33,032 nucleotides of DNA, taken from NCBI GenBank assembly GCA_945861025.1, contig CAMASN010000033.1:1-33032 (forward strand), given 5' to 3'. This stretch comes from Ferrithrix thermotolerans DSM 19514 (GTDB lineage Bacteria; Actinomycetota; Acidimicrobiia; Acidimicrobiales; Ilumatobacteraceae). Under the pieces are notes generated by a model. It did no database searches. It had not been told where the DNA came from and worked only from the letters and a program-made list of their open reading frames with translations. This document shows positions 11,178-30,271 of the stretch, one piece after another (within the stretch, counting starts at the first letter, position 1; each line of letters opens with the position of its first letter). The position numbers were made by a program, and so were the translations under genes.

Positions 11178-11609
11178 ATGAAAACAATTGTTGTTGGAGT
11201 CGATGGGTCCGAGGGTTCCGACGACGCACTGAAGTGGGCCGTAACCGAAGCCAAGCTGCGTGGCTGTTCGCTGCAAGTTGTGTACAGCTGGCAGTACCCG
11301 CTCTATGTCACCTCGGAGCCCATCTACATGCCACCGCCCGACAAGGATCTAATTATCAAGGGTGCCACGTCGACGGCCGAGAAGTTGGTTGCGGACGCCG
11401 GAGTAGCTGCGGCGGGCGTGACGTTCACGATTCAGACACCACAGGGCCGCCCCGGCCCGGAACTGGTGAGGCTCGCCGCCGAAGCCGAAATGCTGGTGGT
11501 TGGATCTCGCGGCGCCGGTTCGGTTCGCGAGCTGTTGCTTGGGTCCGTATCAAACTATTGCGCCCACCACAGCCGTTGCCCGGTTGTTCTGGTGCGACCC
11601 ACCGAGTAG
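11178..11609 (+). CDS. Universal stress protein (UspA family)
   Basis: A 143-residue single-domain USP. The N-terminal strand IVVGVDGSEGSDDALKWA (4-21) and the C-terminal motif G109-SR-G112-x9-G122-S123 match the ATP-binding subclass. Such proteins bind ATP in the cytoplasm and act in dormancy and stress responses; the partner here is unknown. A close paralogue lies at 12638, sharing SVxNYCAH(H/Y)SRCPVV at the C-terminus. The ribosome-binding site is weak. The gene stands 57 bases after the SDR and 42 bases before the oxygenase. Confidence 0.92.
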   Translation: MKTIVVGVDGSEGSDDALKWAVTEAKLRGCSLQVVYSWQYPLYVTSEPIYMPPPDKDLIIKGATSTAEKLVADAGVAAAGVTFTIQTPQGRPGPELVRLAAEAEMLVVGSRGAGSVRELLLGSVSNYCAHHSRCPVVLVRPTE

Positions 11610-11651: not shown

Positions 11652-12506
11652 ATGCAGGTTGATGTCGTCGATTTTCGGGCTGCTGACGCGCCGCGAGCGT
11701 TTACCGAGTCGCTCCACAACACCGGCTTTGCCGTGCTCGTGAACCATCCGTTGCCGCCTTCTCTGGTGCAGGGCATCTACGACGAATGGCTCGACTTCTT
11801 CAACACCGACACCAAGTACGCGTATCGCTACGACGAAGAAAACCAGAACGGTTACTTCGGACCCGAGGTCTCCGAGACCGCCAAGGGCAACTCGGTTCGC
11901 GACATCAAAGAGTTCTTCCATGTGTACCCATGGGGCCGCTATCCAAGCACTGTCAGCGACGCGGCACTGCGCTACGCCGAGCAAGCAACCGAGATTGCAC
12001 GCACCTTGCTGTCATGGGTTGAGGCCCACACCCCCGCATCGGTGTCGGCACAATTTTCACGTCCGCTCAATCAGATGCTCGATGGCAGCACTCGCACACT
12101 TCTGCGTGTTCTGCGGTATCCGCCGCTCACTGGCAACGAGCCCGCTGGCGCCGTGCGCGCTGCGGCGCACGAAGACATCAACTTGCTTACGGTGTTGCCA
12201 GCATCAAACGAATCGGGTCTGCAGGTACGCGACATCAACGGCGTCTGGCACGACGTGCCGTGCGACTACGGCAGCATGGCGGTGAACTGTGGCGACATGC
12301 TCGCCTTGGCCAGCGGCGGCTACTACCCGTCGACAACACATCGCGTGCTCAACCCAACCGGCGACTCAGCGAAGCGCTCGCGTCTGTCTGTGCCGTTGTT
12401 CTTGCACCCTGCCGACGACGTGGTTTTAGCCGAGGGTCGCACGGCGTTCGAGTTCTTGCACGAACGCATCGCCGAGCTGCGCAGTCAAGACATCAAACCC
12501 AACTGA
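11652..12506 (+). CDS. 2-oxoglutarate/Fe(II) oxygenase, isopenicillin-N-synthase-like
   Basis: A 284-residue non-heme iron oxygenase. The N-terminal domain has VDVVDF and HNTGFAVLVNHPLP (about 22-35), the DIOX_N pattern. The iron ligands are H173 and D175 in AAHEDINLLTVL and H230 in STTHRVLNP, and the 2-oxoglutarate-binding pair is R244-x-S246 in RSRLSVPLF. All catalytic residues of the 2OG-Fe(II) family are therefore present. YFGPEVSETAKGNSVRDIKEFFHVYPWG is the usual central segment. The substrate cannot be read from the sequence; relatives act on amino acids, peptides and small natural products. It is flanked on both sides by universal stress protein genes, an arrangement discussed in the findings. 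AAGG precedes the ATG by a few bases. Confidence 0.88.
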   Translation: MQVDVVDFRAADAPRAFTESLHNTGFAVLVNHPLPPSLVQGIYDEWLDFFNTDTKYAYRYDEENQNGYFGPEVSETAKGNSVRDIKEFFHVYPWGRYPSTVSDAALRYAEQATEIARTLLSWVEAHTPASVSAQFSRPLNQMLDGSTRTLLRVLRYPPLTGNEPAGAVRAAAHEDINLLTVLPASNESGLQVRDINGVWHDVPCDYGSMAVNCGDMLALASGGYYPSTTHRVLNPTGDSAKRSRLSVPLFLHPADDVVLAEGRTAFEFLHERIAELRSQDIKPN

Positions 12507-12637: not shown

Positions 12638-13048
12638 ATGGGCAGCATTGTCGTCGGTGTAGACGGATCGGAGAACTCGCGACATGCCCTTGAGTGGGCA
12701 ATGGACGAGGCCAAGGTGCGTAATGCGCGACTCCTTGTGGTGTCGTGCTGGGAGTTCCCCACACTGGTTGCCACCGAAGTTGTGTGGACCGTGGCCCCCG
12801 ATGTGGTGGCTACGGCTGAGCGACTCGCACAAGAAGTCAACCTCGATGCGTCAGGCGTGCAGTACACCATCATGGCGCCCGAAGGCAGGCCTGGCGGCGA
12901 CCTTGTGCGCATCGCCGAACTCGCCGACATGCTCGTGGTCGGTTCACGCGGTTCAGGATCGTCGAGCGAACTCTTGCTCGGGTCCGTTGCGAACTACTGC
13001 GCGCACTACAGCCGTTGCCCCGTGGTCATCATTCACCCACCTACCTGA
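12638..13048 (+). CDS. Universal stress protein (UspA family)
   Basis: A 136-residue USP and paralogue of the gene at 11178. IVVGVDGSENSRHALEWA (4-21) and G102-SR-G105-x9-G115-S116 form the ATP-binding site. The middle region (residues about 36-65) is shorter than in the paralogue, lacking the YMPPPDKD segment. The ATG is preceded by CGAGGA with five bases between. The upstream 131 bases hold a short direct repeat and probably its own promoter. A strong hairpin follows at 13081. Confidence 0.92.
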   Translation: MGSIVVGVDGSENSRHALEWAMDEAKVRNARLLVVSCWEFPTLVATEVVWTVAPDVVATAERLAQEVNLDASGVQYTIMAPEGRPGGDLVRIAELADMLVVGSRGSGSSSELLLGSVANYCAHYSRCPVVIIHPPT

Positions 13049-13900: not shown

Positions 13901-14287
13901 TCAGACATCCAACTTGCACTGGGCGCTTCCGCCCGGCATTCGATGCCGATTGCGAGCAACCCAGCGATACACAACCGCTGCGACGTGCGAAATTCCGGGC
14001 ACGAGTAACAATCGTCCAAGGATGCCCCAGCCGCGGCCAGAGTCGATGAGTAAACGAGCGATCGCTACATGCCCCGACGAGATGACACCGTTGCTGTCAA
14101 CCCATTGCACTGCTGTTTCACACTGCTGTGCAGTGAGGCCAAGCGCTTCAATATCGATGCGTTGCCATGCTTTGACTTCGCAACCGTGTGCAAATCGGCG
14201 CTCGGCGAATTGCGCGGAGCGAGTGCAGAACGCGCAGTCACCATCGAACACGAGCACTGCGCTTTTTTGACCTACGGCAGTTGTCAT
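13901..14287 (-). CDS. DCC-family (DUF393) thiol-disulfide oxidoreductase-like protein
   Basis: A 128-residue protein with the family-defining motif DGDCAFC (15-21) near the N-terminus, giving a CxxC pair (C18, C21), and W39 in VKAWQRID. The C-terminal half (GWGILGRLLLVPGISHVAAVVYRWVARNRHRMPGG) is the usual ending of the DUF393 family. The family is predicted to have a thioredoxin-like fold; its partners are unknown. The ATG at 14287 is chosen because it places DGDCAFC close to the N-terminus. A TTG at 14356 would overlap the upstream ATPase gene. It is 37 bases downstream of the ABC importer ATPase and probably in the same transcript. Confidence 0.83.
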   Translation of the reverse strand: MTTAVGQKSAVLVFDGDCAFCTRSAQFAERRFAHGCEVKAWQRIDIEALGLTAQQCETAVQWVDSNGVISSGHVAIARLLIDSGRGWGILGRLLLVPGISHVAAVVYRWVARNRHRMPGGSAQCKLDV

Positions 14288-14324
14288 TCCAACAGCATGC
14301 ACCCACCAACGCTCAAAGGCACGA

Positions 14325-15971
14325 TCAATCTGTTGATCTTCGCCGCGCCAACTCAATAAGCCGCGCCGTATACGGATCGCGAGGCCGACTCAGCACCTCG
14401 TTGGTGACGTCGACTTCGACAAGGCGGCCATTGCGTAACACTGCGATTCGATCGGCGATCGATGCGACCACTGCGATGTCATGCGACACAAACACCATCG
14501 TGGTCGCCAACCGCCGATGGATATCGAGCAGGGTCGCCAACACACCGGCCTGCACAGTGACGTCGAGCGCAGAGGTGACCTCATCGAGCAACAGCAACTC
14601 TGGCTTCATCGCTAAGGCCCGAGCGATAGCGACGCGCTGTTTCTCGCCACCCGACAACTTCGCACCGCGGCGCTCGAGCATCTCAGCAGCGAGCCCCACC
14701 GTGTTGAGCAGTTCTCGCAGCGTCTCGTCGTGAGCAGCATTCGAGGCGTAGCCAAATCGAGACCATGATCGCCGAGCAGTTGGGTCGATCAGACGACGAA
14801 CCGTGTGCGCCGGGTTCAGTGAGTCATCGGGGTTTTGGAACACCATCTGAATTCGTCGAAGCATGTCGATGGGCCGACGTTCTACGGCCGTGGCGAGATC
14901 GAACCCATCAGCCCATTGCACGGTTCCGCTCGTTGGAGGCAGCAAACCACAGATGGTTTTGAGCAAGGTCGACTTGCCCGAACCCGATTCTCCGATCACA
15001 CCGAGAATCTCACCCGAGAACACCTCAAGCGTGAGAGCATCAACCGCCGTGGTGGCAGACGCGGCGCTTGCTCGCCCGAGTCGATAACGGGCCGACGACC
15101 GCACCACCGACAGCGCCTCGGCGCGGACAATCGGTGTCGGCGCTTCGTGGTCGAGTGCAGTGCCACGGTCGGCCCCAATGTGGCGAATGCCAAGCGTTGG
15201 GGCCGCTGCGAGTAGCTCAGCGGTGTACGCGTGCGAGGGGCGCCGGTTCATCTGCTCGCGGCTTGCGTCTTCAACGATCTCGCCGTGACGCATCACCACT
15301 ACCCGATCGGCGACGCGATCGATGACGCTGAGGTCATGACTCACGCACACCAAGGTGAAACCGCGGCGATGCTGCGCTTCGGCGATCATGCTCAAGATGT
15401 CGTGTACAACGCCTACGTCGAGCGCCGATGTCGGCTCGTCGAGCAACACGATGTGCGGGTCTCGAGCAAGACCTAAAGCGATCAAGACGCGCTGCTGCTG
15501 CCCGCCTGAAAGTTCGTGCGCGAACCTTCGGCGAAGTTGGTCGCCATTCAGTCCAACCTCATCGAGCAACTGAGATGTTCGATCGGCGTCTTGGCCGAGC
15601 ACCTCAGCGAAGTGCTGGGCGACACTGAGGTGGGGCGTGAGCGACATCGCAACGCTTTGTGGCACCATCGCCACCGTTGAACCGAGCAGTCGGCGACGGT
15701 CTTCATCGGCAAGCGAAAAGAAATCGTGTCCTGCCGTATGCGCTGTTCCGTGAGCAACGAACAGCCCATGGCCAGCCGCCCCGATCCACGCGCGCAGCAG
15801 GGTGGACTTGCCTGAGCCCGACTCGCCGACAATGCCCAGCCTGGTTCCGGCCGGCACCACAAGCGAGAGCTCGCGAAGAATCAACTGTGGCTTTACGGCA
15901 TTGAGATGCTCTGCATCGAATGGGCCCACGCCTATCGAAAAACGGTCGAGTTGTAAGGCAACGTCGATCAT
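14325..15971 (-). CDS. Peptide/opine/nickel-type ABC importer, fused double ATPase (DppD-DppF-like)
   Basis: A 548-residue protein carrying both nucleotide-binding domains of the importer. Domain 1: Walker A GESGSGKST (49-57), signature LSGGQ (154-158), Walker B LLDEP (176-180), switch H212. Domain 2: Walker A GESGSGKST (327-335), signature LSGGE (439-443), Walker B LLDEV (461-465), switch H497. Each half is followed by the short oligopeptide-importer tail (SHAYTAELLAAAP and RDPYTARLIELA). VFQNPDDSLNPAHTV in half 2 is typical of DppF/OppF. Domain 2 has LLDEV where DEP is usual, while the catalytic Glu is kept. The start overlaps the permease stop by four bases (ATGA). It energises the two permeases at the inner face of the membrane. 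Confidence 0.93.
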   Translation of the reverse strand: MIDVALQLDRFSIGVGPFDAEHLNAVKPQLILRELSLVVPAGTRLGIVGESGSGKSTLLRAWIGAAGHGLFVAHGTAHTAGHDFFSLADEDRRRLLGSTVAMVPQSVAMSLTPHLSVAQHFAEVLGQDADRTSQLLDEVGLNGDQLRRRFAHELSGGQQQRVLIALGLARDPHIVLLDEPTSALDVGVVHDILSMIAEAQHRRGFTLVCVSHDLSVIDRVADRVVVMRHGEIVEDASREQMNRRPSHAYTAELLAAAPTLGIRHIGADRGTALDHEAPTPIVRAEALSVVRSSARYRLGRASAASATTAVDALTLEVFSGEILGVIGESGSGKSTLLKTICGLLPPTSGTVQWADGFDLATAVERRPIDMLRRIQMVFQNPDDSLNPAHTVRRLIDPTARRSWSRFGYASNAAHDETLRELLNTVGLAAEMLERRGAKLSGGEKQRVAIARALAMKPELLLLDEVTSALDVTVQAGVLATLLDIHRRLATTMVFVSHDIAVVASIADRIAVLRNGRLVEVDVTNEVLSRPRDPYTARLIELARRRSTD

Positions 15972-16795
15972 GACAATTCGGCCTGCGCTCGTCGGTCGAC
16001 CAACGCATTGACGCCAAGCACCAGCGAAGCCAACATCACTACGGGAGCGAGCAGAGGCAGCGGACTGACCGTGATGAATCCGCGGGCGTCGCTAATCATC
16101 AGACCCCACTCGGCCGTCGGCGGACTGGTGCCAAGGCCGAGAAACGACAGCGAGCTGAATGCCAACAAGATCCACGTGAACTGCATCGCCACTTCGGTGA
16201 TGAAAACCTCGGCGATGTTCGGCAGCACCTCGCCCACAACGATGGCGCGTCGAGACGCTCCGCGGAGTCGGGCCGCCAAGATGAAGTCACGCGTGAGCAC
16301 ATTGCCCGATGCGCCACGCACAACACGCGCTATCGGCGGCGCGTACATCAGCGCCAAAGTGGCGACCAGCACCACCGGCTCTCGGCCGATAAAGCTAGCA
16401 ACGAGCATCAGCACCAGCAGCGAGGGCATCGCCAAGAGCACGTCGACGACCCGCATGATTGCGTCGTCGAGCCATCCGCCTGCTAACGCTGCAAATGTTC
16501 CGAGACCGAAGCCAAGCGTTGCAGCAAGCAGCACAGCGACGAGCGCTACACCGATCGAGGGCTGACCGCCATGAAGCGTTCGGCTCAGTACATCGCGCCC
16601 AAGAGAATCGGTGCCTAACCAATGAGCACCCGACGCTCCTTGCAAAATCGCGTTCGAGTCCTGCGCCACCACCGACTGCAACGGAAGCACTGACGCGGCG
16701 AGAGCAAGTAGCAGGTGGCCTCCAACAATCACGGCACCCGCCGACATGGTGATGCGCCGACGGGTTCGAGTTGCTGTCGAGGTAACGCCGATCAC
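15968..16795 (-). CDS. ABC importer permease, DppC/OppC type
   Basis: A 275-residue inner-membrane permease of the peptide/opine/nickel class. HWLGTDSLGRDVLSRTLHG (about 58-76) is the hallmark of the DppC branch, directly before the main membrane domain. The EAA loop that contacts the ATPase is FILAARLRGASRRAIVVGEVLPNI. The C-terminal part (FLGLGTSPPTAEWGLMISDAR) is also diagnostic. About six membrane helices are visible. The start is GTG at 16795, overlapping the upstream permease stop (GTGA), and its own stop overlaps the ATPase start (ATGA), so the three genes are tightly coupled. Confidence 0.93.
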   Translation of the reverse strand: MIGVTSTATRTRRRITMSAGAVIVGGHLLLALAASVLPLQSVVAQDSNAILQGASGAHWLGTDSLGRDVLSRTLHGGQPSIGVALVAVLLAATLGFGLGTFAALAGGWLDDAIMRVVDVLLAMPSLLVLMLVASFIGREPVVLVATLALMYAPPIARVVRGASGNVLTRDFILAARLRGASRRAIVVGEVLPNIAEVFITEVAMQFTWILLAFSSLSFLGLGTSPPTAEWGLMISDARGFITVSPLPLLAPVVMLASLVLGVNALVDRRAQAELS

Positions 16796-17745
16796 GATGC
16801 GACCTGGGCCCGCATTCGCGGATCAAGCGCCCGCGTGACGGCGTCGGAGACGAACGACGAAGCGATGAACACAACCAGGCCGAACAGCGTCAAGGCCAAA
16901 ATCAGAGCGGTGTCGCGATCTGAGATCGCGTCGACAGCGATGCGGCCCAAACCTGGAAAGTTGAACACGACCTCGACCACGAATGTGCCTGTGAGCAACC
17001 ACGCCGCTGTTACCGCCATCACGTTGATCGGTGTCGGCAGCGCCGCGGGCAAGATGTGTCGACGAACAACGATGCGTTCGGCGATGCCACGGGCACGCGC
17101 AGCCTCGACAAATGGGCGCTCTTCGGTCACCAAGAAACTGGCGCGCATCGACCTCATCACATGCGCGAAAACAACCAAAGCGAGCGTGATCGCGGGGAGC
17201 CAAATGTTCGGCAAGATGTCGAGCAGCGAGGCGGTGCTCGAAACCATCGTGACTCCTGGCAACAGCGGAAGCCACACGGCGAACAGCAACCAGAGCACCG
17301 ACGCCGTGACGAATTCGGGCATGGTCATCAACACAAGACTCAGGGTGTCTACGGCTCGGGCGACTCGTGTTCCCTTTCGTCGGGCGCTCCAAACGCCAAC
17401 CACAATCGCCAACGGAAAAGCCATCAGGCTTGCGACCGTTGCCAACGCCAGCGAGTTGCGAAGGCGCGGCATCACGATGTCGACCACCGATTTGCCACGC
17501 CTGATCGAGAACCCAAGGTCGCCATGCAGCAACCCACTCGCCCAGTCGATGAGCCGGTGCAACACCGACGCATTCAGACCATTGGCAGCGCGACATTGGG
17601 CGAGCTTTGTCGCCGTCGCCGAGCGACCAAGCAGCGCTGTGCACGCATCACCAGGAAGCGCCTCGACACCCAAAAACACGAGCACCGACATCACGGTGAA
17701 CACCCCAAGAGAGATCGCCAAGCGGCGAAGCAAATAGGCGGTCAT
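16792..17745 (-). CDS. ABC importer permease, DppB/OppB type
   Basis: A 317-residue permease. The N-terminus MTAYLLRRLAISLGVFTVMSVLVF is the DppB-type first helix, followed by GLLHGDLGFSIRRGKSV (71-87), the conserved segment before the permease domain. The EAA loop is PFVEAARARGIAERIVVRRHILPAAL (211-236), and FNFPGLGRIAVDAISDRD (261-278) is the standard C-terminal signature. It pairs with the DppC-type protein to form the channel. It starts 12 bases after the binding-protein gene. The small soluble loop after helix 1 has two cysteines (C35, C51). Confidence 0.93.
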   Translation of the reverse strand: MTAYLLRRLAISLGVFTVMSVLVFLGVEALPGDACTALLGRSATATKLAQCRAANGLNASVLHRLIDWASGLLHGDLGFSIRRGKSVVDIVMPRLRNSLALATVASLMAFPLAIVVGVWSARRKGTRVARAVDTLSLVLMTMPEFVTASVLWLLFAVWLPLLPGVTMVSSTASLLDILPNIWLPAITLALVVFAHVMRSMRASFLVTEERPFVEAARARGIAERIVVRRHILPAALPTPINVMAVTAAWLLTGTFVVEVVFNFPGLGRIAVDAISDRDTALILALTLFGLVVFIASSFVSDAVTRALDPRMRAQVAS

Positions 17746-17757
17746 CGAGGCTGCGAG

Positions 17758-19311
17758 TCAGTCAACCTGAATCTGCTCCCACCGAACGGCATCGATCACG
17801 ATCGGCGCAACGCCTTTGACCTTGGCACTCATCGCTCGCACCAATGTCTTGTGATACGGAATGAACGTGGCCGAGTTGTCAAACAGGCGTTGCTGAATCG
17901 CCTGATACTTTTTTGCTCGCCCATCGTTGTCGAGCGTTGAGCGAGCGCTATCGAGCAAGCCATCGAGTTCGGTATCGATGAGTCCGGTCTCGTTCCACGC
18001 GGCGGTCGAGCGGAACACTTCGTTGAGTACCTGTGGCGCCGGACGCTGGCCCCAACTTGTAACGAACACCGGCTCCTTCATCCACACGTTGTCCCAATAT
18101 CCGCTCGCGTCGGCCATGGTGATCTTCACCCTGATGCCAGCAGCCTTGACCTGCTCTTGATACGCCTGCACGAGATCAACAAAGTTGTCCTCGACATCGC
18201 TCGTGAAAATCTCGATATCGATGCCGTCGGGGAAGCCAGCGTCGGCGAGCAACTTCTTAGCGCCCTCGATGTCTTGCGCACAATCGCCGTCCCAGCGGTA
18301 GGGGTCGCCGCTCCACACCGGGGTATCGCATGCCACGACGCCGCCATCCTTACCGAGCACCACATCGGTGAGCTGTTGACGATCGACCGCAATGCGTAAG
18401 GCTTTGCGTACCCGCTGGTCATCGAATGGCTTGTGATTTACCTGAAAATCGATGCCGTTCCAGTCGCCCGACACAATGCGCTGGGTGGTGAACTTGCTCG
18501 TGTCACTGAACAACGACTCGTTCTTCGCACCGACAGCGAGCAGCATGTCGACCTGGCCGCCGAGCAGTGCTTGGGTTGCAGCCTGTGCATCAGCGATCGC
18601 AGGAATCTCAATGCGAGCCAGCTTTGGCTTTCCGAGGAAGTAGTTGGGGTTCGCTGCAAGCACCGTGGTGCCCTCAGGGTCGAAGGTCTGCATCGAGAAC
18701 GGACCGGTACCGACGGGCGCCTTGCCGATGGTGTCCAGAGAATCAACCGGAGTCATCAAGGCTCTGTAGTCGGCGAGCAGCACAGGCAGATCGGCCTCGG
18801 CGGTAGACAGCACAATCGTTACCGTTGACGCATCAACGGCATCGACGTAATCAATGATGCCCAGAACGGCGCGCACCGGAGAGTCAAACGTGGGGTCGAT
18901 CATTCGATCGATCGAGTAGACCACGTCGGCCGAATCGAAGTCGGAGCCATCATGAAACTTCACGCCCGATCGCAGTTTCAGCGTCCACTCGGTCATGGCA
19001 TCGTTCGCGACCCAAGACTCGGCCAACTCAGGAATTGGGCTGAAGTCTTTGTCGACGCCGATCAAACGATCGAAGACCATGTTGATGGCCGGCCAAAAGC
19101 GGTTGCCGTCGTAGGGGTCCATCGTCTCGGATCCACCGAAGCCGGCATCGTTCGCCACCCGCAAGACACCCGCAGAAGTAGAGGTTGAGGCCGACCCACC
19201 GCAACTCACCAAACCAAACGCGGTGAGCGCAACAATGGCAACTCCAAGGTTTCGGCGGCGGAGCCGAGCAGGCTGACGCTTGGTCAATCGAAGCACGGTC
19301 TTGTTCAACAC
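17758..19311 (-). CDS. ABC importer substrate-binding lipoprotein (SBP family 5)
   Basis: A 517-residue extracytoplasmic binding protein of the DppA/OppA class. A basic N-terminus and a hydrophobic stretch lead to the lipobox GLVSC, with C37 as the lipidated residue. The family-5 core is clear: INMVFDRLIGVDKDFSPIPELAESW, LRSGVKFHDGSDFDSADVVYSIDR, then NHKPFDDQRVRKALRIAVDR. The ligand (peptide, opine, nickel chelate or sugar) cannot be told from sequence. The start is a GTG with AGGGGA four to five bases upstream. It is the first gene of the importer operon and is divergent from the EEP/Gfo-Idh/SDR/PhyH gene set across 133 bases, which suggests shared regulation. Confidence 0.93.
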   Translation of the reverse strand: MLNKTVLRLTKRQPARLRRRNLGVAIVALTAFGLVSCGGSASTSTSAGVLRVANDAGFGGSETMDPYDGNRFWPAINMVFDRLIGVDKDFSPIPELAESWVANDAMTEWTLKLRSGVKFHDGSDFDSADVVYSIDRMIDPTFDSPVRAVLGIIDYVDAVDASTVTIVLSTAEADLPVLLADYRALMTPVDSLDTIGKAPVGTGPFSMQTFDPEGTTVLAANPNYFLGKPKLARIEIPAIADAQAATQALLGGQVDMLLAVGAKNESLFSDTSKFTTQRIVSGDWNGIDFQVNHKPFDDQRVRKALRIAVDRQQLTDVVLGKDGGVVACDTPVWSGDPYRWDGDCAQDIEGAKKLLADAGFPDGIDIEIFTSDVEDNFVDLVQAYQEQVKAAGIRVKITMADASGYWDNVWMKEPVFVTSWGQRPAPQVLNEVFRSTAAWNETGLIDTELDGLLDSARSTLDNDGRAKKYQAIQQRLFDNSATFIPYHKTLVRAMSAKVKGVAPIVIDAVRWEQIQVD

Positions 19312-19444
19312 GGTTCCCCTAGCGCAGTTGCGAAATTTCTGGCAGAACTGTAACCCAGCGACGTGACCCGCAGTGAAACATCAGCCAAACAGCGCGAGCC
19401 GCCAGATCATCGAGAGCCCTCTCCCCGGCTACGTTGTGGTCACC

Positions 19445-20311
19445 ATGTCGACAGTGCTCAAGATCGCGACCTTCAACATCCAATACTCGCTCGGAGCAGA
19501 CGGCATCTACGACCTTGCCCGATGCATCGACGCAGTCCGCAACGCCGACGTGATTTGCCTGCAAGAAATCGACCGAAACTGGCAACGAACAAACATGGCC
19601 GATCAGGCTGCCGAAGTCGAAGCACTGCTCCCCGATCGGTACTGCGTGTTCTCGCCAATTCTCGATGTCGACGCCAGCTCGGTCGACGCATCGGGCCGAG
19701 TGACCAACCGGCGGCGCCAAGCGGGCCAGATGATCATCAGCCGATTCCCGATCCTTTCATCGCGTTTTGTCGAACTACCCAAGATCGACACCGGCGACAT
19801 GCCGAACTCATGGTGCGGCATGCACGAGGCAGTCATCGTGCTGCCAGATTCGGCGGTTCGCGTGGTCAATGTGCATCTCACCGATGTCACTCGGTCGGGT
19901 CGAATGGTGCAGGTCCGCGAGTTCGTGCGCCGACTGCACGACGCCCCGATCGAGGGCGGCGCATGGAACGGCACCGACCCCGACGCCGAATCCCGCGCCC
20001 ATTGGCAGCTCGACGACAACCCACCGCCCATGCCGTACGCGGCTGTGGTGGTTGGCGACTTCAACGACGTGCCCACGTCGCCGGTGTACGACACCATGTG
20101 CCGAAGCGGCTTTCGCGATTCCTGGTCGACCGACACGGCACTCACGCCATACAACGTGACCTTCAAGACCAACCCACCGCAAGGCACGTTCGAAGATATG
20201 CGTATCGACTTCATCTTCGTGAACGACGCCATCGAAGTACTCGATGCGGTCATCGATGCAGAGTGCCCTGCGTCAGACCATCAGCCTGTGTGGGCAACCA
20301 TCAAGGCGTAG
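19445..20311 (+). CDS. Endonuclease/exonuclease/phosphatase-fold enzyme
   Basis: A 288-residue metal-dependent phosphodiesterase/phosphatase-fold protein. All active-site positions are visible: N11 in ATFNIQ, metal-binding E41 in CLQEID, H144 in VNVHL, D205 and N207 in VGDFND, D255 in RIDFIF, and D278-H279 in SDHQPV. Relatives cleave DNA, phosphoinositides, sphingomyelin or small phosphodiesters. There is no signal peptide from this start, so it is probably cytoplasmic. The insert around 170-195 (EGGAWNGTDPDAESRAHW) is not part of the core motifs. ATG at 19445 is chosen because the fold begins immediately (MSTVLKIATFNIQ); the frame stays open to 19373. It heads a four-gene plus-strand run. 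Its linkage to a dehydrogenase and an oxygenase argues for a small-molecule substrate over nucleic acid. Confidence 0.87.
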   Translation: MSTVLKIATFNIQYSLGADGIYDLARCIDAVRNADVICLQEIDRNWQRTNMADQAAEVEALLPDRYCVFSPILDVDASSVDASGRVTNRRRQAGQMIISRFPILSSRFVELPKIDTGDMPNSWCGMHEAVIVLPDSAVRVVNVHLTDVTRSGRMVQVREFVRRLHDAPIEGGAWNGTDPDAESRAHWQLDDNPPPMPYAAVVVGDFNDVPTSPVYDTMCRSGFRDSWSTDTALTPYNVTFKTNPPQGTFEDMRIDFIFVNDAIEVLDAVIDAECPASDHQPVWATIKA

Positions 20312-20385
20312 TCATTGCCCGGACCTCGGCGGGCGCCGACGCTCCCCTACCGACTCTCCCAACGGCTCGCACTAATCTCCACGCC

Positions 20386-21384
20386 GTGGAGAACCTTCGA
20401 CTCGGACTCGTGGGCTGCGGAGCAATCGCCGAATGGCATGCTGCAGCGCTCAAACATTCGCAGCGCACAGTGGTCACGGCATGTGTCGATGTGTCCCCCG
20501 AGCGCGCCAACAAATTGGCCGCGCTTACCGGCGGCCAAGCGTGCGGGTCCATCGCCGAAGCAGTAGAGATCGGCGTCGATGCGCTCGCAATTTTGGTGCC
20601 GCACCACTTGCACGAATCCTTGGTCACCGAGGCGCTCGAAGCGGGTGTTCACGTGGCGCTCGAAAAGCCGATGGCTCCAACAGTCGACGCCTGCGAACGC
20701 ATCTTGGCTACAGCTGCGAAGCACAACGACCGCGTGTTCATGCTCACCGAAAACGCTCAGTACTGGCCCGAGATCTTGATCGCTCGCGACCTCGTGAACA
20801 ACGGCGCAATTGGCGATCTTGTCACCGCGCGTTCGTGGCACAACTTTGGCATCACCAAAGAGTTCTACCCCACCGATCAGGCGTGGAGATTCCAGCAATC
20901 GGCAGCGGGCGGCGGCGTTGCGCTCGATACCGGTTCGCACTGGATGCGTCCCTTGCGGATGGTGCTCGGCGAGATCGACGAAATCGTTGCCGTCACCGGC
21001 CGACTGTGGCCACAGATGGAAGGCGAATCGATGGTTCGCTCGCTGTGCAAGTTTGCCTCTGGGGTGGTAGCCAGTTTCGATGTCATCTTGGCCACCGGCG
21101 CTGTTGGGCTGCAGCCACATTTTCAGTTCACCGGCTCTACGGGTGAAATCGTGATCTCAGCCTTGGGCGAGGTTCGGTTGTTCGACGGCAAGGATTGGCA
21201 AGGCACAGTGGTTGGGCACGGCAACTACATGGACAGCTACAAGGGCGTCTGGACAGATTTTGAGGCGGCGGTGCTCGATGGCAAGCCACTCGAAGCAGAC
21301 GCGCGTTACTCACTCGGCGAAGTTCGCGCAGCGAACGCCATCGTCCGAAGCGCAGCTACGAACACATGGCAGAAAGTCTGGTGA
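20386..21384 (+). CDS. Gfo/Idh/MocA family oxidoreductase
   Basis: A 332-residue NAD(P)-dependent dehydrogenase. The N-terminal Rossmann motif is LGLVGCGAIAEWHAAAL (6-22, GxGxxA at 10-15), with D35 in CVDVSPERA favouring NAD. The catalytic lysine is K94 in ALEKPMAPT, and the C-terminal domain has GGGVALDTGSHWMRPLR with D181 and H185, the usual catalytic pair. Relatives oxidise sugars, inositols and sugar acids. A GTG at 20386 is the only start that places the Rossmann motif correctly. The frame is open for about a kilobase upstream, but that stretch runs across the EEP gene in another frame and is not protein-like. The stop overlaps the GTG of the next gene (GTGA). Confidence 0.88.
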   Translation: MENLRLGLVGCGAIAEWHAAALKHSQRTVVTACVDVSPERANKLAALTGGQACGSIAEAVEIGVDALAILVPHHLHESLVTEALEAGVHVALEKPMAPTVDACERILATAAKHNDRVFMLTENAQYWPEILIARDLVNNGAIGDLVTARSWHNFGITKEFYPTDQAWRFQQSAAGGGVALDTGSHWMRPLRMVLGEIDEIVAVTGRLWPQMEGESMVRSLCKFASGVVASFDVILATGAVGLQPHFQFTGSTGEIVISALGEVRLFDGKDWQGTVVGHGNYMDSYKGVWTDFEAAVLDGKPLEADARYSLGEVRAANAIVRSAATNTWQKVW

Positions 21385-22142
21385 GCACCGCCATGAACTC
21401 CGTGAACTTCAACTTCGAAGGCGCCTCAGTGCTGGTTACTGGAGGCTCAAACGGCATCGGTAACGCGATCGCCAACTCATTCGCCGATGCCGGAGCGACG
21501 GTGGTCATCACCGGCACGAAACCGTCGGCCGCTCACTATGACAACGATCTTTCTCGTTTCGAATATGTGCAGTGCATGATGAGCGATCGCGAGCAAATTG
21601 CGACGTTAGCTCAGCGGTTCAGCAGTCTCGATGTACTCGTGAACAATGCAGGCCAAGTGATGCCCAACGGCGGCAACGAGTATGACCCCGATGTGTTCGA
21701 AGAGGCACTGCAGATCAACATCGCGGCCACGTTTCGGTTGACCCAGTTACTGAAGCCAGCGCTCCGAAAGTCGTCATTGGCCGGCGGTGCGTCGGTCATC
21801 AACATGGCGTCACTCGCATCGTTCTTCGCGGTCGAATTCGTGCCCGGCTATGGCGCTGCCAAAGCTGCCGTGGTGCAGATGACCAAGACCTTGGCTGTGC
21901 ACTACGCCGGTAACAACATTCGGGTCAATGCGGTTGCCCCGGGCCTCATCGAATCGAACATGACAGCGCCCATGCTTGGACACGACGCGCTCACGCGGCC
22001 GCACCTCGATCGCACACCGCTCAACCGGGTCGGCACTCCGCAAGAAGTTGCGCCGGCGGTCTTGTTCCTCGCCTCGCATGCCAGCCAATACATCACCGGC
22101 CACGTCATCGTGGTCGACGGCGGCTTCTCCGCAAAGGGGTAA
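21381..22142 (+). CDS. SDR family oxidoreductase
   Basis: A 253-residue short-chain dehydrogenase. Counting from the GTG, the cofactor motif is TGGSNGIG (20-27), NNAG is at 88-91, and the catalytic residues are S144, Y157 and K161 (GYGAAKAAV). The C-terminus QYITGHVIVVDGGF is standard. Three in-frame starts are possible: ATG 21366 (inside the previous gene), GTG 21381 (GTGA overlap with the previous stop) and ATG 21393. GTG is preferred for the 4-base overlap seen at other junctions here. It stands between the Gfo/Idh dehydrogenase and the PhyH-type oxygenase, so it probably acts in the same pathway, for example on a hydroxylated intermediate. Confidence 0.87.
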   Translation: MSTAMNSVNFNFEGASVLVTGGSNGIGNAIANSFADAGATVVITGTKPSAAHYDNDLSRFEYVQCMMSDREQIATLAQRFSSLDVLVNNAGQVMPNGGNEYDPDVFEEALQINIAATFRLTQLLKPALRKSSLAGGASVINMASLASFFAVEFVPGYGAAKAAVVQMTKTLAVHYAGNNIRVNAVAPGLIESNMTAPMLGHDALTRPHLDRTPLNRVGTPQEVAPAVLFLASHASQYITGHVIVVDGGFSAKG

Positions 22143-22146
22143 CACC

Positions 22147-23016
22147 ATGACATCAGCAGCACTGCGCTTGGTTACCGACCAAGAGATCGAAACGTTTTGG
22201 CGCGATGGCGTTGTGTGCCTGCGCGGCATCGTTGATCCGTCGCTGCTTCATGCCATGGTCGCCCCTATCGAGGCGCTACTCGACACCAAGGAGCTCGCCG
22301 ACATGTCGGCAATGGGCGACGCGATGGCCGCGAGCGGACTCGATGTGCAGCGCGGCGACGTGCCCAGCAAGGGTCGTGGTCGCTTCTTTGCGGGCGTTGA
22401 CCATTGGCTCGAGCACGCCGAGTTTCGCGAGTTTGCCTGTAACTCTCCGCTGCCCGAAACCGCCGGGCGCATCATGCGTTCGCAGTGGGTGCGCTTGTGG
22501 GAAGACAGCGTGTTGACCAAAGAACCCGGCACCATCGAACGCACGGCTTGGCATCAGGACATGAGCTATTTCCATGTCGAAGGCACCAAGGTCTGCACGA
22601 TGTGGTGTCCGCTCGATTCGGTCACATCTGATTCGGGCGCAGTGAAGTTTGTGGTGGGCTCGCACCTGTGGCCAGAGTTATATCAACCCAACCTGTTCGT
22701 GTCGTCGATGGCCATTCCTGGCACCACTGGTTCGCAGGCGCCCGACATCGACACCATGGCGCAACGCGGCGACTGCGAAGTGGTTGCGTTCGATACCGAA
22801 CCCGGCGACGTCACCATCCACCATGCCCGCACCGTTCATGGCGCCGGGCCCAACACCACAACACGTAATCGGCGGGCCATCAGCTTGCGCTACTGCGGCG
22901 ACGACGCCACGTATCTCACCCGGCCCGGATCAGCGCTGAAGGCGAACCACCATCACGTGGTCGATGGCCAACCGCTACACAACGACGATTGCCCTTTGGT
23001 CTGGAAACGCGACTGA
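22147..23016 (+). CDS. Phytanoyl-CoA dioxygenase (PhyH) family oxygenase
   Basis: A 289-residue 2-oxoglutarate/Fe(II) oxygenase of the PhyH type. Iron ligands are H136 and D138 in TAWHQDMSYFHVEG and H231 in HHARTVHGAGPN. The arginines of TTRNRRAISLRY (from 237) include the 2-oxoglutarate anchor. KFVVGSHLWPELY (167-179) is the family's SGSH-like element (here VGSH). Bacterial PhyH proteins hydroxylate amino acids, phosphonates, lipids and ectoine; none is specified here. The ATG at 22147 follows the SDR stop by four bases, and AAAGGGG stands six to seven bases upstream. An apparent 57-residue upstream extension belongs to the shadow frame over the SDR. A hairpin overlaps the stop. Confidence 0.9.
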   Translation: MTSAALRLVTDQEIETFWRDGVVCLRGIVDPSLLHAMVAPIEALLDTKELADMSAMGDAMAASGLDVQRGDVPSKGRGRFFAGVDHWLEHAEFREFACNSPLPETAGRIMRSQWVRLWEDSVLTKEPGTIERTAWHQDMSYFHVEGTKVCTMWCPLDSVTSDSGAVKFVVGSHLWPELYQPNLFVSSMAIPGTTGSQAPDIDTMAQRGDCEVVAFDTEPGDVTIHHARTVHGAGPNTTTRNRRAISLRYCGDDATYLTRPGSALKANHHHVVDGQPLHNDDCPLVWKRD

Positions 23017-23053
23017 GGGCACGCCGACCAACTGGTCAACGTGCCCTCAATTT
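23014..23053. terminator. Hairpin terminator overlapping the PhyH stop codon
   Basis: TGAGGGCACG (starting with the stop codon) pairs perfectly with CGTGCCCTCA, and an inner GACCA-AC-TGGTC extends the structure. ATTT follows on the plus strand. The convergent surface-protein gene ends at 23080. Confidence 0.8.
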
Positions 23054-23079
23054 CAGAACACTCTCCGCAATCGGTCAGA

Positions 23080-23790
23080 TCACACGTTGACCCGACGACG
23101 CACGCTGAGCAGCACCATGCCGGCGCCGAGCAGCGTTGCAGCGATGGGCAACAACGAGGTGCTTCCACCAGTTTCAGGCAGGAGCGCCTCTGACGCCGCA
23201 GCTGCAGCCGTAGTGGTTGGCGCAGCAGCCGTGGTGGTTGGCGCTGCAGCCGTAGTGGTCGGCGCAGCAGCCGTGGTGGTCGGCGCTGGCTGCGTGGTGG
23301 TCGTTGGGGCCTCACAAGCAACCAAGGTGTACTCGCCAACGACTGTCATCGGTGTTGAGAATTCGGAGCCAATCTCTGTCGCCCAAAAGGTGACCGTCTC
23401 GGTCCGGGTGGATCCAACGGCACGGTCCTCGTCGACCAACGCCGTTGCCGCCCCGCCCGGAGCAAGCACGAGCTTGTTGTCAAAGTTCTGCAGAATCAAC
23501 TGATCCACATCTATCAAACGAAGGCCATCCACCTCGTAGCCCGAACCCGAGAAGGTCCACGTGACAATCGCGTCGTTGGTGCCCGGCTCACACAGTTGCT
23601 CTCCGGTCAACGTGCCTAGCGCCAACTCCTGAGGCGGCGCAGCGGCACCCGCTGAGTCCAGACCGACCATTGAGGTACCGGCGAGTGCTGCCACCGTGAC
23701 GGCGAGCGCTCCGGCGAATCGCCGAATGGTCACGCCCGCCGTGCGAGCTGAGCTGGATGGGGCGATTGCGCTGTCGTGAGGAAGGATCAT
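23080..23790 (-). CDS. LPXTG-type cell-surface protein with threonine/proline stalk
   Basis: A 236-residue secreted protein. The signal sequence runs over about 22-50 (RRFAGALAVTVAALAGTSMVGLDSAGAA). It is followed by an unrecognised beta-rich domain (about 52-160) with two cysteines (C67, C159), a stalk of four PTTTAAA repeats (170-197), then the sorting signal LPETG (204-208), a hydrophobic helix and the tail RRRVNV. It is therefore expected to be linked to the cell wall by a sortase, which is not encoded in the window. ATG at 23790 is chosen because it gives a normal signal peptide. A GTG at 23865 would add 25 residues that translate the two upstream dyads (VVAPL twice), which look regulatory. 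The ligand or role of the exposed domain is unknown. Confidence 0.83.
   Translation of the reverse strand: MILPHDSAIAPSSSARTAGVTIRRFAGALAVTVAALAGTSMVGLDSAGAAAPPQELALGTLTGEQLCEPGTNDAIVTWTFSGSGYEVDGLRLIDVDQLILQNFDNKLVLAPGGAATALVDEDRAVGSTRTETVTFWATEIGSEFSTPMTVVGEYTLVACEAPTTTTQPAPTTTAAAPTTTAAAPTTTAAAPTTTAAAAASEALLPETGGSTSLLPIAATLLGAGMVLLSVRRRVNV
23204..23287. repeat. 21-bp tandem repeat encoding the PTTTAAA stalk
   Basis: Four near-identical 21-base units of the type GCAGCCGTAGTGGTTGGCGC on the plus strand encode seven-residue steps on the minus strand. Differences among units are at third-codon positions, and a degenerate fifth unit follows. The unit number could vary between strains by slippage. 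Confidence 0.88.
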
Positions 23791-23826
23791 GCGGTTCAGC
23801 TTCGTGATTTCCCTCACCCGCGTCAA

Positions 23827-23864
23827 TGGTGCAACCACCAGACCTCGAAGTGGTGCTACCACCA
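23827..23864. promoter_or_regulatory. Two tandem dyads TGGTG-N4-CACCA
   Basis: TGGTGCAACCACCA (23827-23840) and TGGTGCTACCACCA (23851-23864) are each a perfect 5-bp inverted repeat with a 4-base centre, 24 bases apart, and differ at a single base. They lie 37-74 bases upstream of the surface-protein ATG and are a candidate operator pair. TTGACG on the minus strand (23821-23826) directly adjoins the first dyad and could be a -35 element. Confidence 0.5.
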
Positions 23865-23895
23865 CCGCTCGACACAGCGATGCTGGCTTGCCGGC

Positions 23896-27510: not shown

Positions 27511-28581
27511 ATGATCTTTCAACGCTCCAGAATGACTTGGCTCGGTATTGTGTTGGTGCTCACAGCATGCAGCTCCACCAAAGGATCCAGCACGGGCGCA
27601 GTAGCACCGGCAAACAACGCTCAGTCCACAGCTCGCGGCGCCTGCGAAATCGGCACAGCGATCACAGCCGGCGAGCGACTCCGGATCGGTTCAACCGTTG
27701 CTCCCATCACATCTATCGTGGCCAACATCGCCGGCGAACACGCCGACATCGCCGGCCTGGTCCCAGAGGGCACCAACTCTCACACCTTCGAGCCGGCGCC
27801 AAGCGTCGCCGCAATCTTGGCAACGACCGACGTGTTGTTTACCAACGGGTTACTACTCGAGGAACCCACAAGGGACCTCGCTGCGAAGAACCTCGCGAAC
27901 GGAGCCATCCTGTGCGAATTGGGTACGGCCGCCCTTCCTGTCGCCGATTACATCTACGACTTCTCGTTCCCGATTGAGGGCGGCAAGCCGAATCCGCACC
28001 TTTGGACCAATCCACCCTTGGCAAAGGTGTACGCCGAGATTGTCAGGGACGTGCTCGTGCGGATGGACCCCGCTCACGCAGGTGCGTATCGCAGCAACGC
28101 AACTGTGTTCATCGCCCGAATCAACCAGCTCGACGCTGCGCTGGTCACCGCAACCGCCACGGTGCCTGCGAATCAACGCAAGCTGCTCACCTATCACGAC
28201 GCCTATGCGTATTTTGCTCGGACGTACGGCTGGACCGTGATTGGCGCCATTCAGCCGTCAAGTTTCGACGAACCGACGGCGAAAGAGATAGCCCGCCTGA
28301 TCAAACAGGTGCGCGAGACCGGTGTGTCAGCGATCTTTGGATCCGAGGTTTTCCCGAGCCCAGTGTTGCGTCAGATCGGTTCCGAGACCAATGTTGCGTA
28401 CGTGGATGTACTGCGTGACGACGACCTACCTGGTAAACCCGGTGACCCGGGCCACTCGTTTCTCGGTTTAATGCAGTTCGACTTCATCACGATGGTCGAC
28501 TCGCTCGGCGGAGATGCTTCAGCGCTAAGGGCCATCGACATCAGCGATGTCACCGTTGACACTGCGGTGTACCCGCAGTGA
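27511..28581 (+). CDS. Metal ABC importer substrate-binding lipoprotein (ZnuA/MntC-like, cluster 9)
   Basis: A 356-residue binding protein for Zn2+ or Mn2+ (possibly Fe2+). The lipobox VLTAC gives lipidated C20. The domain begins at RIGSTVAPITSIVANIAGEHADIAGLVPEG. Likely metal ligands are H91 in NSHTFEP, H163 in NPHLWTNPP, H229 in LTYHDAYAYF, and an acidic residue in LRDDDLPG (D303-D305) or E279. The His-rich loop of many Zn-specific ZnuA proteins is absent, so the metal is left open. ATG at 27511 is used; M8 at 27532 would also give a good lipoprotein signal. The next gene overlaps by four bases (GTGA). CRP-like sites, but no obvious AT-rich Zur palindrome, lie upstream. Confidence 0.92.
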   Translation: MIFQRSRMTWLGIVLVLTACSSTKGSSTGAVAPANNAQSTARGACEIGTAITAGERLRIGSTVAPITSIVANIAGEHADIAGLVPEGTNSHTFEPAPSVAAILATTDVLFTNGLLLEEPTRDLAAKNLANGAILCELGTAALPVADYIYDFSFPIEGGKPNPHLWTNPPLAKVYAEIVRDVLVRMDPAHAGAYRSNATVFIARINQLDAALVTATATVPANQRKLLTYHDAYAYFARTYGWTVIGAIQPSSFDEPTAKEIARLIKQVRETGVSAIFGSEVFPSPVLRQIGSETNVAYVDVLRDDDLPGKPGDPGHSFLGLMQFDFITMVDSLGGDASALRAIDISDVTVDTAVYPQ

Positions 28582-29375
28582 CGAGCCTCGATGACCGCAC
28601 AGACGCTGCCGCGATCACGAGTCCGGCCCGCGCCCTCGTCGAAGTCGACGGCGTTTCGCACAGCTACAGCGGTCCGTTGGTGCTCGATCACATCCATCTC
28701 TCGATCGATGCGGGTTCGTTCCTCGGCGTCATCGGCCCGTCGGGCTCAGGCAAGACCACCCTGCTGCGGCTCATCCTCGGCAGCCTCTCCCCCACAAATG
28801 GCACAGTGAAACGCGAGCCCAATCTGCGTGTGGCGTACGTGCCGCAGGTCGAGACCGTGAACTGGAACTTCCCGATCACGGTGAGCGAGGTGGTGCTGAT
28901 GTCGCGGTCGCCATCCATGCGTCGCCCCTGGGCCACAGCGTCCGAACGTCGCGATGTGTCGGAAGTGCTCGAACAGTTGGGACTCGACGGCCTCGGCAAT
29001 CGCCACATTCGCGAACTGTCCGGGGGTCAGCAACAGCGGGTGTTCCTCGCCCGCGCGCTACACCGCAAGCCCGATCTCTTGGTGCTCGACGAGCCGACCT
29101 CAGGTGTCGACGTGCGCACCCGCCACGAGGTTGTGCACCTGTTGACCGATCTGCACCGCGACGGTATGGCTGTGGTGTTGACGACGCACGACATCAACGG
29201 CCTAGCCACACATCTGCCGAGGATCGCGTGCGTCAACCGCGAGCTCATTGCGCTCGGGAGCCCCCGCGACGTGCTCACTCCGCAGGTGCTCGAGCGCACG
29301 TACGGCGCACCTATGGAAGTGCTCGAGCATGGCGGACTCCTGCTGGTCACCGACTCGCCGTTGGCGACGTCGTGA
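28578..29375 (+). CDS. Metal ABC importer ATPase (ZnuC/MntB-like)
   Basis: A 265-residue ATPase for the metal importer. Walker A is GPSGSGKTT (53-61), the Q-loop glutamine is Q90 in YVPQVETVNW, the signature is LSGGQ (147-151), Walker B is LLVLDEPTSG with D171 and E172, and the switch histidine is H204. VNWNFPITVSEVVLMSR is a strong marker of the manganese/zinc importer ATPases. The start is GTG, overlapping the binding-protein stop by four bases, and its stop overlaps the permease GTG in the same way. The N-terminal 20 residues before the fold are a short unconserved extension. Confidence 0.95.
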   Translation: MTSLDDRTDAAAITSPARALVEVDGVSHSYSGPLVLDHIHLSIDAGSFLGVIGPSGSGKTTLLRLILGSLSPTNGTVKREPNLRVAYVPQVETVNWNFPITVSEVVLMSRSPSMRRPWATASERRDVSEVLEQLGLDGLGNRHIRELSGGQQQRVFLARALHRKPDLLVLDEPTSGVDVRTRHEVVHLLTDLHRDGMAVVLTTHDINGLATHLPRIACVNRELIALGSPRDVLTPQVLERTYGAPMEVLEHGGLLLVTDSPLATS

Positions 29376-30211
29376 ACCTGTTTGAGCCATTCCAGTTTGC
29401 CTTCTTCCGCAACGGAATCATCGTGGCAGTGCTCGCCGGAGCCATCTGTGGGCTGATCGGTGTGTATGTCGTGCTTCGTCAGATGAGCTACATCGGCCAC
29501 GGTCTGTCGCACTCGATTTTCGGAGGTGCCGCAGCCAGTGCCGTGCTGTCGGTGAACTTTTATCTCGGCGCCGGCTTATGGGGTTTGCTGTCGGCCCTGA
29601 TGATCGGACGGGTGGCCCGTCGGGGCAAGATCGGCTCCGATGCGGCCATCGGGGTGATCACCACGGCCTCGTTCGCAATGGGCCTTGCGTTGTCGAACCT
29701 GTTCGGCCAGGCAAAGCGCTCGATCGATGCCGTGTTGTTCGGCTCAATCCTCGGCGTCGGCGGCACCGATGTGCTCGCTGTCCTCGGCGCCGGCGTGTTG
29801 TCGGTGGTGGTCATCTATGCCTGCTACCGGCACTTGCTGTTCGCCACGTTCGATCCCGAGGTCGCCAATGTTTCGGGCGTCAACGTCGCTCGAATGGAAG
29901 CACTGCTGATGCTGATGTTGGCGATCACGATCCTGTTCACCATGAAGGTGATGGGGGTGCTGCTGATCAGCGCAATGCTGGTCACTCCAGCGGCAACGGC
30001 ACGAATGATGACGAACTCGTTCGCAAGGATGCTCACGATCGCTCCGATCATCGGAGCCCTGTGCGGCTTTACGGGCATGCTGGTCAGCTACCACATCGAT
30101 GTGTCGCCTGGAGCCACCATCATCCTGATGGCATCGACCGTGTTCTTAGGGGTATTCACGGTGACCGGCAGTCGTGGCCGGCGCAACGTTGCCGGACTTG
30201 GTCACCACTAA
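29372..30211 (+). CDS. Metal ABC importer permease (ZnuB/MntC-like, ABC-3 family)
   Basis: A 279-residue membrane protein with about eight helices. Diagnostic segments are YVVLRQMSYIGHGLSHSIFGGAAAS near the N-terminus, FGSILGVGGTDVL in the middle, and MGVLLISAMLVTPAATARMM, followed by GMLVSYHIDVSPGATIIL, near the end. The start is GTG at 29372 (GTGA overlap with the ATPase); the frame is open upstream inside the ATPase gene but that part is a shadow. It completes a three-gene importer. A weak 6-bp hairpin follows at 30217-30232. Confidence 0.94.
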   Translation: MNLFEPFQFAFFRNGIIVAVLAGAICGLIGVYVVLRQMSYIGHGLSHSIFGGAAASAVLSVNFYLGAGLWGLLSALMIGRVARRGKIGSDAAIGVITTASFAMGLALSNLFGQAKRSIDAVLFGSILGVGGTDVLAVLGAGVLSVVVIYACYRHLLFATFDPEVANVSGVNVARMEALLMLMLAITILFTMKVMGVLLISAMLVTPAATARMMTNSFARMLTIAPIIGALCGFTGMLVSYHIDVSPGATIILMASTVFLGVFTVTGSRGRRNVAGLGHH

Positions 30212-30216
30212 ACCAG

Positions 30217-30232: not shown

Positions 30233-30271
30233 GTCGTTCCAGCGATTTGCTCGGCCTGATCTCGCCGTGAA

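Follow-up and report, generated by a model that had tools for sequence, protein, structure and literature searches.

A candidate organophosphorus-ester importer beside the candidate oxidative arm of a sulfation-linked cassette in Ferrithrix thermotolerans

Gene content of the locus

We investigated a divergent importer-enzyme locus of Ferrithrix thermotolerans DSM 19514, which lies in a stretch of 33,032 nucleotides (the whole of this stretch is called the window here; contig C33, CAMASN010000033.1) of a 2.9 Mb genome in 104 contigs. Four importer genes on the minus strand (14325-19311) face four enzyme genes on the plus strand (19445-23016). An original prediction, made from this sequence, had described a complete Opp/Dpp-type importer facing an EEP-family phosphoesterase, a Gfo/Idh dehydrogenase (GFO), an SDR oxidoreductase and a PhyH-type oxygenase, and the open reading frames and families are as it stated, with the two permeases and the ATPase outside the interval 17758-23016 to which it had assigned the cluster. 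Our preferred account, which we hold with some reservation, is that the locus consists of two adjoining units: unit A, which would import an organophosphorus ester and cleave it with the EEP enzyme, and unit B, GFO-SDR-PhyH, the presumptive oxidative arm of a sulfation-linked cassette. The protein families involved are known, and their combinations look like new variants.

On the importer side, the solute-binding lipoprotein (SBP; 17758-19311, minus) belongs to SBP_bac_5 (PF00496, 255 bits) and carries the lipobox LVSC. It is followed on the same strand by an OppB/DppB-type permease (16792-17745; PF00528 and PF19300), an OppC/DppC-type permease (15968-16795; PF00528) and a fused double ABC ATPase (14325-15971; PF00005 twice), in which two GESGSGKST Walker A sequences are intact and are accompanied by LSGGQQQR and LSGGEKQR signatures. 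The block contains the features of its importer class, namely a PF00496 lipoprotein with a lipobox, two BPD_transp_1 permeases and two nucleotide-binding domains, here fused. The SBP and the permeases score below every NCBIfam cut-off among the families listed, and the labels of microcin, nickel, glutathione and opine importer were dropped on that ground.

The SBP and EEP genes are separated by 133 bases (19312-19444), exactly the length that had been given for a shared divergent promoter region; the promoter itself fared less well, as a promoter and terminator scan of 19000-23200 gave no signal above shuffled sequences and no consensus promoter in the gap. The EEP gene (19445-20311, plus; PF03372, 80.5 bits) encodes intact GDFND and SDHQP motifs, of the GDxN and SDH types, and the enzyme is taken to be cytosolic because no signal sequence was seen by eye. 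It is followed, 74 bases on and on the same strand, by the Gfo/Idh/MocA dehydrogenase gene (about 20386-21384, plus, with a GTG start proposed; PF01408/PF22725, EKP motif intact), the SDR gene (21366-22142, plus; PF13561, YxxxK intact) and the gene for a PhyH-family Fe(II)/2-oxoglutarate (Fe/2OG) oxygenase (22147-23016, plus; PF05721, 97 bits), which retains WHQD of the HxD...H motif and the distal His/Arg. Motifs were confirmed in all enzyme proteins and the ATPase, bearing out the claim that the active sites are intact. The label of inositol 2-dehydrogenase for GFO was dropped at 80 bits against a cut-off of 355. With the start codons used here, GFO-SDR-PhyH is tightly packed, SDR and GFO overlapping by 19 bases and SDR and PhyH lying 4 bases apart.

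The importer and EEP genes are conserved as a divergent pair

Gene content, conservation, separability and co-occurrence are read directly from the genomes compared. The EEP gene was found in 4 of 100 relatives (E at most 1e-20): the window's own genome and genomes G011, G037 and G052, which form one genus, other than the window's. In all three, EEP is divergent from an SBP-permease B-permease C-ATPase block, with a contig end cutting the ATPase in G052, and identities to the window's unit are about 69-70% for the SBP, 57-59% for EEP and 54-59% for the permeases (in G037, 70% for the SBP, 55% and 58% for the OppB- and OppC-type permeases and 47% for the ATPase). Among 397 genomes of the order, the window's own alone yielded an SBP orthologue (E at most 1e-110, with the top three candidates of each genome scored); among 13 chosen genomes, 3 did so, again G011, G037 and G052. 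Across the phylum, EEP gave one further match in 296 genomes (G495, 36%; E at most 1e-22), around which (locus L133) no importer was recognised by eye in the list of open reading frames.

No GFO-SDR-PhyH unit was present in the examined importer stretches of G011, G037 and G052, and neither a PhyH orthologue (0/3) nor the metallo-beta-lactamase (MBL)-fold partner described below (0/3) was found in these genomes. EEP is the one enzyme gene seen retained with the importer in both genera.

Neighbors of EEP and SBP relatives point to a phosphorus-containing cargo

Plasmid-borne relatives of EEP comprised 145 records; 9 among the best 30 were examined (regions were read for H1, H2, H4 and H6-H9, H3 and H5 were judged from feature names, and a group at 28% identity was left out), and 6 of the 9 are importer-linked. 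These are three from Nitratireductor (H1, H3 and H5), of which H1 has the order SBP-permease-permease-UgpC-EEP, with EEP directly 3' of UgpC; one from Phyllobacterium, in an importer-EEP-HAD hydrolase arrangement; one from Rhizobium sp. 007; and one from Sinorhizobium chiapasense (L117), where EEP lies amid parts of an Opp-type importer and has phnF and C-P lyase genes for neighbors. The catalytic motifs are common to all 11 aligned EEP proteins, rhizobial relatives included.

Among the plasmid matches listed, the closest SBP is that of S. terangae pCB3126_2 (43%), the next standing at about 35%. The S. terangae importer (L130) follows the order of the window, SBP, two permeases and fused ATPase, and is succeeded by a PF01663 phosphodiesterase; a GntR/UTRA (PhnF-named) regulator lies nearby, and aepX, a cytidylyltransferase and a CDP-alcohol phosphatidyltransferase lie 6-9 kb on. 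The setting of the Rhizobium jaguaris relative (33%, L132) likewise includes PhnF and CDP-alcohol genes, with no phosphodiesterase named there, and the region read around the Ensifer adhaerens relative showed neither this setting nor a phosphodiesterase. These three high-ranking relatives were read with flanks of 9-10 kb, and 8 of 30 spread-sampled control importers with flanks of 6.5 kb, within which an annotated PhnF regulator or phosphodiesterase was found in 0/8; one control (H93) has a GntR regulator of unspecified kind. An annotated PhnF regulator is therefore present for 2 of the 11 SBP relatives read, the closest one included. As an observation in its own right, the Opp-type importers of the rhizobial plasmid loci L130, L132 and L117 all adjoin genes for PhnF-named regulators and for phosphonate, C-P lyase or CDP-alcohol functions, which hints that a phosphonate or phosphodiester compound is produced or consumed at these loci.

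Since the EEP and SBP relatives often adjoin phosphoesterases, Ugp-type importers or phosphonate genes, unit A probably serves in the uptake and cleavage of a small organophosphorus ester, of which a phosphodiester or a phosphonate ester is the most likely kind; we infer this substrate from neighboring genes. The importer (14325-19311) would carry the compound into the cell and EEP would hydrolyse it in the cytosol, akin to Ugp importers and UgpQ. The phosphodiester-like cargo of the original prediction is thereby retained for the importer and EEP, a conserved divergent pair with several distant relatives in phosphoester or phosphonate contexts, but not for the other three enzymes.

It is also conceivable, though we think it unlikely, that the cargo of unit A is peptide-like or otherwise free of phosphorus and that EEP serves some unrelated housekeeping function. 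The substrates of SBP_bac_5 relatives are many, and the best Protein Data Bank (PDB) matches of the window SBP include YliB, which we take to be glutathione-type, and AgaA; the control importers, as noted, had no annotated PhnF regulator or phosphodiesterase, and HAD-type hydrolases occur near 3 of the 8. The same direction is indicated by the 3 of 9 EEP relatives away from importers, two of which (H4 and H6) adjoin obgE, while no importer match was found around the third (H2). Against this alternative stand the retention of EEP, and of no other enzyme gene seen, with the importer in two genera, the presence of the closest SBP relative among the two with an annotated PhnF, and the importer linkage of the remaining 6 EEP relatives.

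Comparison with characterized importers places unit A near, but outside, several of them. The Ugp system combines the UgpBAEC importer with UgpQ in glycerophosphodiester uptake. Unit A resembles it in pairing an ABC importer with a phosphoesterase, here as a divergent pair kept in two genera, and in the position of the Nitratireductor EEP relative directly after UgpC; it differs in that the window SBP matches only PF00496 at E up to 0.001 and is not of the UgpB type, in that the hydrolase matches only PF03372 at E up to 0.001 and is not of the GDPD family, and in that the hydrolase gene is divergent rather than inside the importer operon. The S. terangae importer is similar throughout (SBP 42-43%, fused ATPase 35%, permeases 44% for the OppC type and 35% for the other, with a phosphodiesterase adjoining), but its phosphodiesterase is PF01663 rather than EEP, it has the PhnF-type regulator, and it lies beside phosphonate-biosynthesis genes, which were not seen adjoining the window's importer. 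The Acc (agrocinopine) and AgaA importers, which have opine roles, share the SBP superfamily (AgaA, E 2e-33; AccA, E 6e-17 to 3e-16) at low similarity, and AccF is presumably a GDPD-type hydrolase, whereas that of the window is EEP. The xanthosan-type uptake and phosphodiesterase system differs from unit A in relying on a TonB-dependent transporter and a 2H phosphoesterase (PMC12807533). Among the matches listed in open-licence PMC (titles and starts of abstracts), there was no description of an EEP glycerophosphodiesterase with an importer.

GFO, SDR and PhyH recur with a sulfotransferase and an alkylsulfatase-like protein

GFO is present in 9 of the 397 genomes of the order (E at most 1e-70), with orthologues at 49-79% identity in the 8 genomes other than the window's. 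In all 8, GFO and SDR are adjacent and clustered with a sulfotransferase and an MBL-fold protein; PhyH is also in the cluster in 5, and the importer was not seen in any of the 8 clusters. In three genomes of family f23 the sulfotransferase of the cluster is more distant (26%), and in the one pair scanned, that of G032, the sulfotransferase matches PF13469 and the MBL protein PF14863. In other families an alcohol dehydrogenase of the medium-chain (MDR) type often replaces GFO: at the 15 MBL loci read, the MBL gene is adjoined by a sulfotransferase in 13, an SDR in 12 and an MDR in 10, and at the two loci without a sulfotransferase (L098 and L099) it stands at a contig end. Genome G298 (L170, G298:C12:8000-22000, 4775-10064) has PhyH-MDR-SDR-sulfotransferase-MBL on one strand with gaps of -4 to 126 bases, and G372 has a GFO-like gene (45%) and an MBL gene with a divergent PhyH gene, the stretch examined containing no sulfotransferase or SDR match. 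A scan of named GTDB genomes with PhyH gave 5 loci; L044 (29%, partial) was left out. The single pathway that the original prediction had proposed for all four enzymes is not supported by this pattern, in which GFO, SDR and PhyH keep company with a sulfotransferase and a sec-alkylsulfatase-like protein and not with the importer.

The window's own genome (G000) encodes the missing partners on other contigs, with a sulfotransferase behind a TetR-like gene (by eye) at G000:C84:4946-6184 (L124, L125), and an MBL gene followed by CysD and CysNC, for synthesis of 3'-phosphoadenosine 5'-phosphosulfate (PAPS), at G000:C99:123-4094 (L098). Sulfotransferase-MBL-CysD-CysNC are contiguous in the congener G006 (L175), and the congener G008 has sulfotransferase-MBL-CysD. 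Given these partners, separate in the window's genome and contiguous in a congener, the cassette appears to be split over two places in this genus, the window being one of them.

The association is also evident in co-occurrence. All 9 GFO genomes are MBL-positive, compared with 48/397 overall (Fisher 3e-9), and among the 100 relatives PhyH (E at most 1e-50) occurs in 6/8 MBL-positive versus 2/92 MBL-negative genomes (Fisher 6e-7). This cut-off was chosen after the hits were seen, but the association persists at 1e-40 (7/8 versus 8/92, 15/100 in total; p 3e-6) and at 50% identity or more (4/8 versus 1/92; p 9e-5). These tests ignore kinship; at 1e-50, p is 0.005 without the window's genus and g25, and 0.004 when counted by family. 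Across 37 MBL-positive genomes (36 of the 48 of the order set plus G008, the other 12 being left out), PhyH at 1e-50 is present in 29, and in 14 of these at 50% identity or more. EEP and PhyH coincide in 1/4 (p 0.29). Two observations on PhyH itself may be added: the window's genome has a PhyH paralogue at G000:C30:35663-36442 (L018; 44%), and the PhyH orthologues at G381:C9:31556-32419 (L146) and G396:C19:23239-24102 (L147) each contain one in-frame TGA.

The EEP-GFO junction and the separability of the two units

The original prediction had named adjacency in a single genome as a result that would refute it, and adjacency of the importer and enzyme sides was found in this genome only; G008 is consistent with such adjacency, but its contigs end at the junction. 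One G008 contig keeps to the gene order of the window between 8063 (or earlier) and about 17843, apart from two insertions, and ends inside the SBP gene; a second begins in GFO and is collinear up to FAS1. These contigs are compatible with the window's order in G008, interrupted by about 2.6 kb of unassembled sequence. An assembly chimera at the EEP-GFO junction of this metagenome-assembled genome would explain why no other genome shows the junction and why a pair of G008 contigs terminate there no more than about 2.6 kb apart, yet we consider it very improbable, as gene order in G008 agrees with that of the window on either side of the break, as expected from a simple gap, and G+C is even over the whole region.

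On a rival account the locus is a single functional one: a phosphodiester enters through the importer, EEP frees an alcohol or polyol from it, and this product is oxidised by GFO, SDR and PhyH. All the genes adjoin on one contig, GFO bears the weak resemblance to inositol dehydrogenases mentioned above, and the order in G008 is compatible; outside the window's genus, however, neither unit was found with the other, and GFO-SDR-PhyH track the sulfotransferase/MBL set instead. We judge this account improbable.

Several observations nevertheless count against our separation of the locus into two units. EEP and GFO share a strand with 74 bases between them and may belong to one transcript, any co-expression within the locus being inferred. 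In G008 both flanks are present, on contigs that stop at the junction, so that the juxtaposition may be selected within the genus; adding G008 to the importer side brings the importer-PhyH coincidence to 2/5 (p 0.05), and importer-MBL to the same. In G011, G037 and G052, GFO and SDR were looked for in the stretches near the importer rather than genome-wide; in G052 the contig continues for about 0.5 kb past EEP, and in G037 a Gfo/Idh gene of only 26% identity stands some 3 kb past the ATPase. The genome sampling is phylogenetically clumped. The coupling of PhyH to MBL is itself imperfect, with PhyH lacking MBL in G071 and G085, and MBL lacking PhyH (1e-50) in G081 and the congener G006 among the 100 relatives and in 8 of the 37 MBL-positive genomes; the PhyH match of G006 is at paralogue level only (45%, E 1.7e-49). 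Since the paralogue in the window's own genome reaches 44% and only 14 of the 29 hits reach 50%, some PhyH hits may be paralogues.

Possible chemistry of unit B

The probable substrate of unit B is an alcohol that undergoes sulfation and de-sulfation rather than the cargo of unit A, as the partners of unit B elsewhere include the sulfotransferase and the MBL protein. GFO-SDR-PhyH would be the dehydrogenase and oxygenase arm of a cassette that elsewhere contains a presumably PAPS-dependent sulfotransferase, a sec-alkylsulfatase-like MBL protein and, in some cases, CysD-CysNC.

The closest solved relative of PhyH is MysH, a mycosporine-like amino acid (MAA) dioxygenase (9c9n, E 1.7e-31), of the same PhyH family and with the HxD...H iron ligands aligned, but the window PhyH is set in a GFO-SDR and sulfotransferase-MBL context. 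A role in MAA catabolism was dropped, the similarity to MysH being its only basis. The best PDB matches of the MBL partner, which is encoded outside the window, are the sec-alkylsulfatase structures 4av7 (E 2e-8) and 2yhe, which we take to be Pisa1, an inverting sec-alkylsulfatase. The two share the Alkyl_sulf_dimr domain (PF14863, 43 bits in the one protein scanned) and T-x-R-G, but the C-terminal SCP2-like domain of Pisa1 was not matched in that protein. A point against our account is that the first metal-binding His of alkylsulfatases is replaced by Gln in 10/10 MBL proteins, which read TQ[AG]HxDH in place of the HxHxDH of type III alkylsulfatases (Pisa1/SdsA).

Type II (Fe/2OG) alkylsulfatases such as Rv3406 have a TauD-type domain, whereas the window PhyH matches only PF05721 at E up to 0.001. 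Rv3406, an Fe/2OG enzyme of this other family, cleaves alkyl sulfates oxidatively, according to PMC3675115, and inverting hydrolases as such are reviewed in PMC3725421. Taken together, the likeness to MysH, the sec-alkylsulfatase likeness of the partner and the precedent of Rv3406 suggest chemistry on a sulfated alcohol for the unit B set. Activity of PhyH on sulfate esters is speculative, and so is a role of sulfation in driving inversion or elimination. Structure prediction returned a mean pLDDT of 27.9 for PhyH (4-row alignment) and 37.9 for the MBL partner (3 rows).

A bolder model, which we offer only tentatively, is an undescribed sulfation-driven pathway in Acidimicrobiia, whose oxidative arm has moved beside an organophosphorus-ester importer in the window's genus. 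In the presumed direction of the reactions, CysDNC and the sulfotransferase would sulfate a secondary alcohol; removal of the sulfate, with inversion, elimination or oxidation, would fall to the divergent sec-alkylsulfatase-like protein, to PhyH as a new kind of oxidative sulfatase, or to both, after which SDR and GFO or MDR would complete the change.

Neighboring features

Following the ATPase on the minus strand is a gene for a DCC1-like thiol-disulfide oxidoreductase (13901-14323; PF04134, 60 bits), which adjoins the ATPase in G008 too. Further along the window, 11652-12506 encodes a second, unrelated 2-oxoglutarate oxygenase (PF03171/PF14226), flanked by short open reading frames (11178-11609 and 12638-13048) that resemble universal stress proteins by eye. 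Beyond PhyH lies a gene for a secreted-looking protein (23080-23865) with APTTTAA-type repeats and a weak match to an LPXTG-type anchor (PF00746, E 0.0004). A metal-importer neighborhood (27511-32508), consisting of AztC/Znu-like and following genes (d5-d9), recurs near the importer in G037 (L036 1-939) and near the sulfotransferase cassette in G112 (L104 13030-17793); it was not found in the 18 kb examined of G211.

Implications

The conservation of this locus cuts at the EEP-GFO boundary, illustrating that a tidy-looking divergent cluster can mislead. Phosphorus is often scarce in freshwater habitats, and in the organophosphorus uptake of freshwater-type actinobacteria the EEP enzyme may replace UgpQ. 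Among the PMC matches listed, there was also no description of a cluster of sulfotransferase, alkylsulfatase and SDR or PhyH; the cassette found here, comprising a sulfotransferase, a sec-alkylsulfatase-like protein, an SDR, a dehydrogenase of the Gfo/Idh or MDR kind and, in some genomes, PhyH, is a recurring one.

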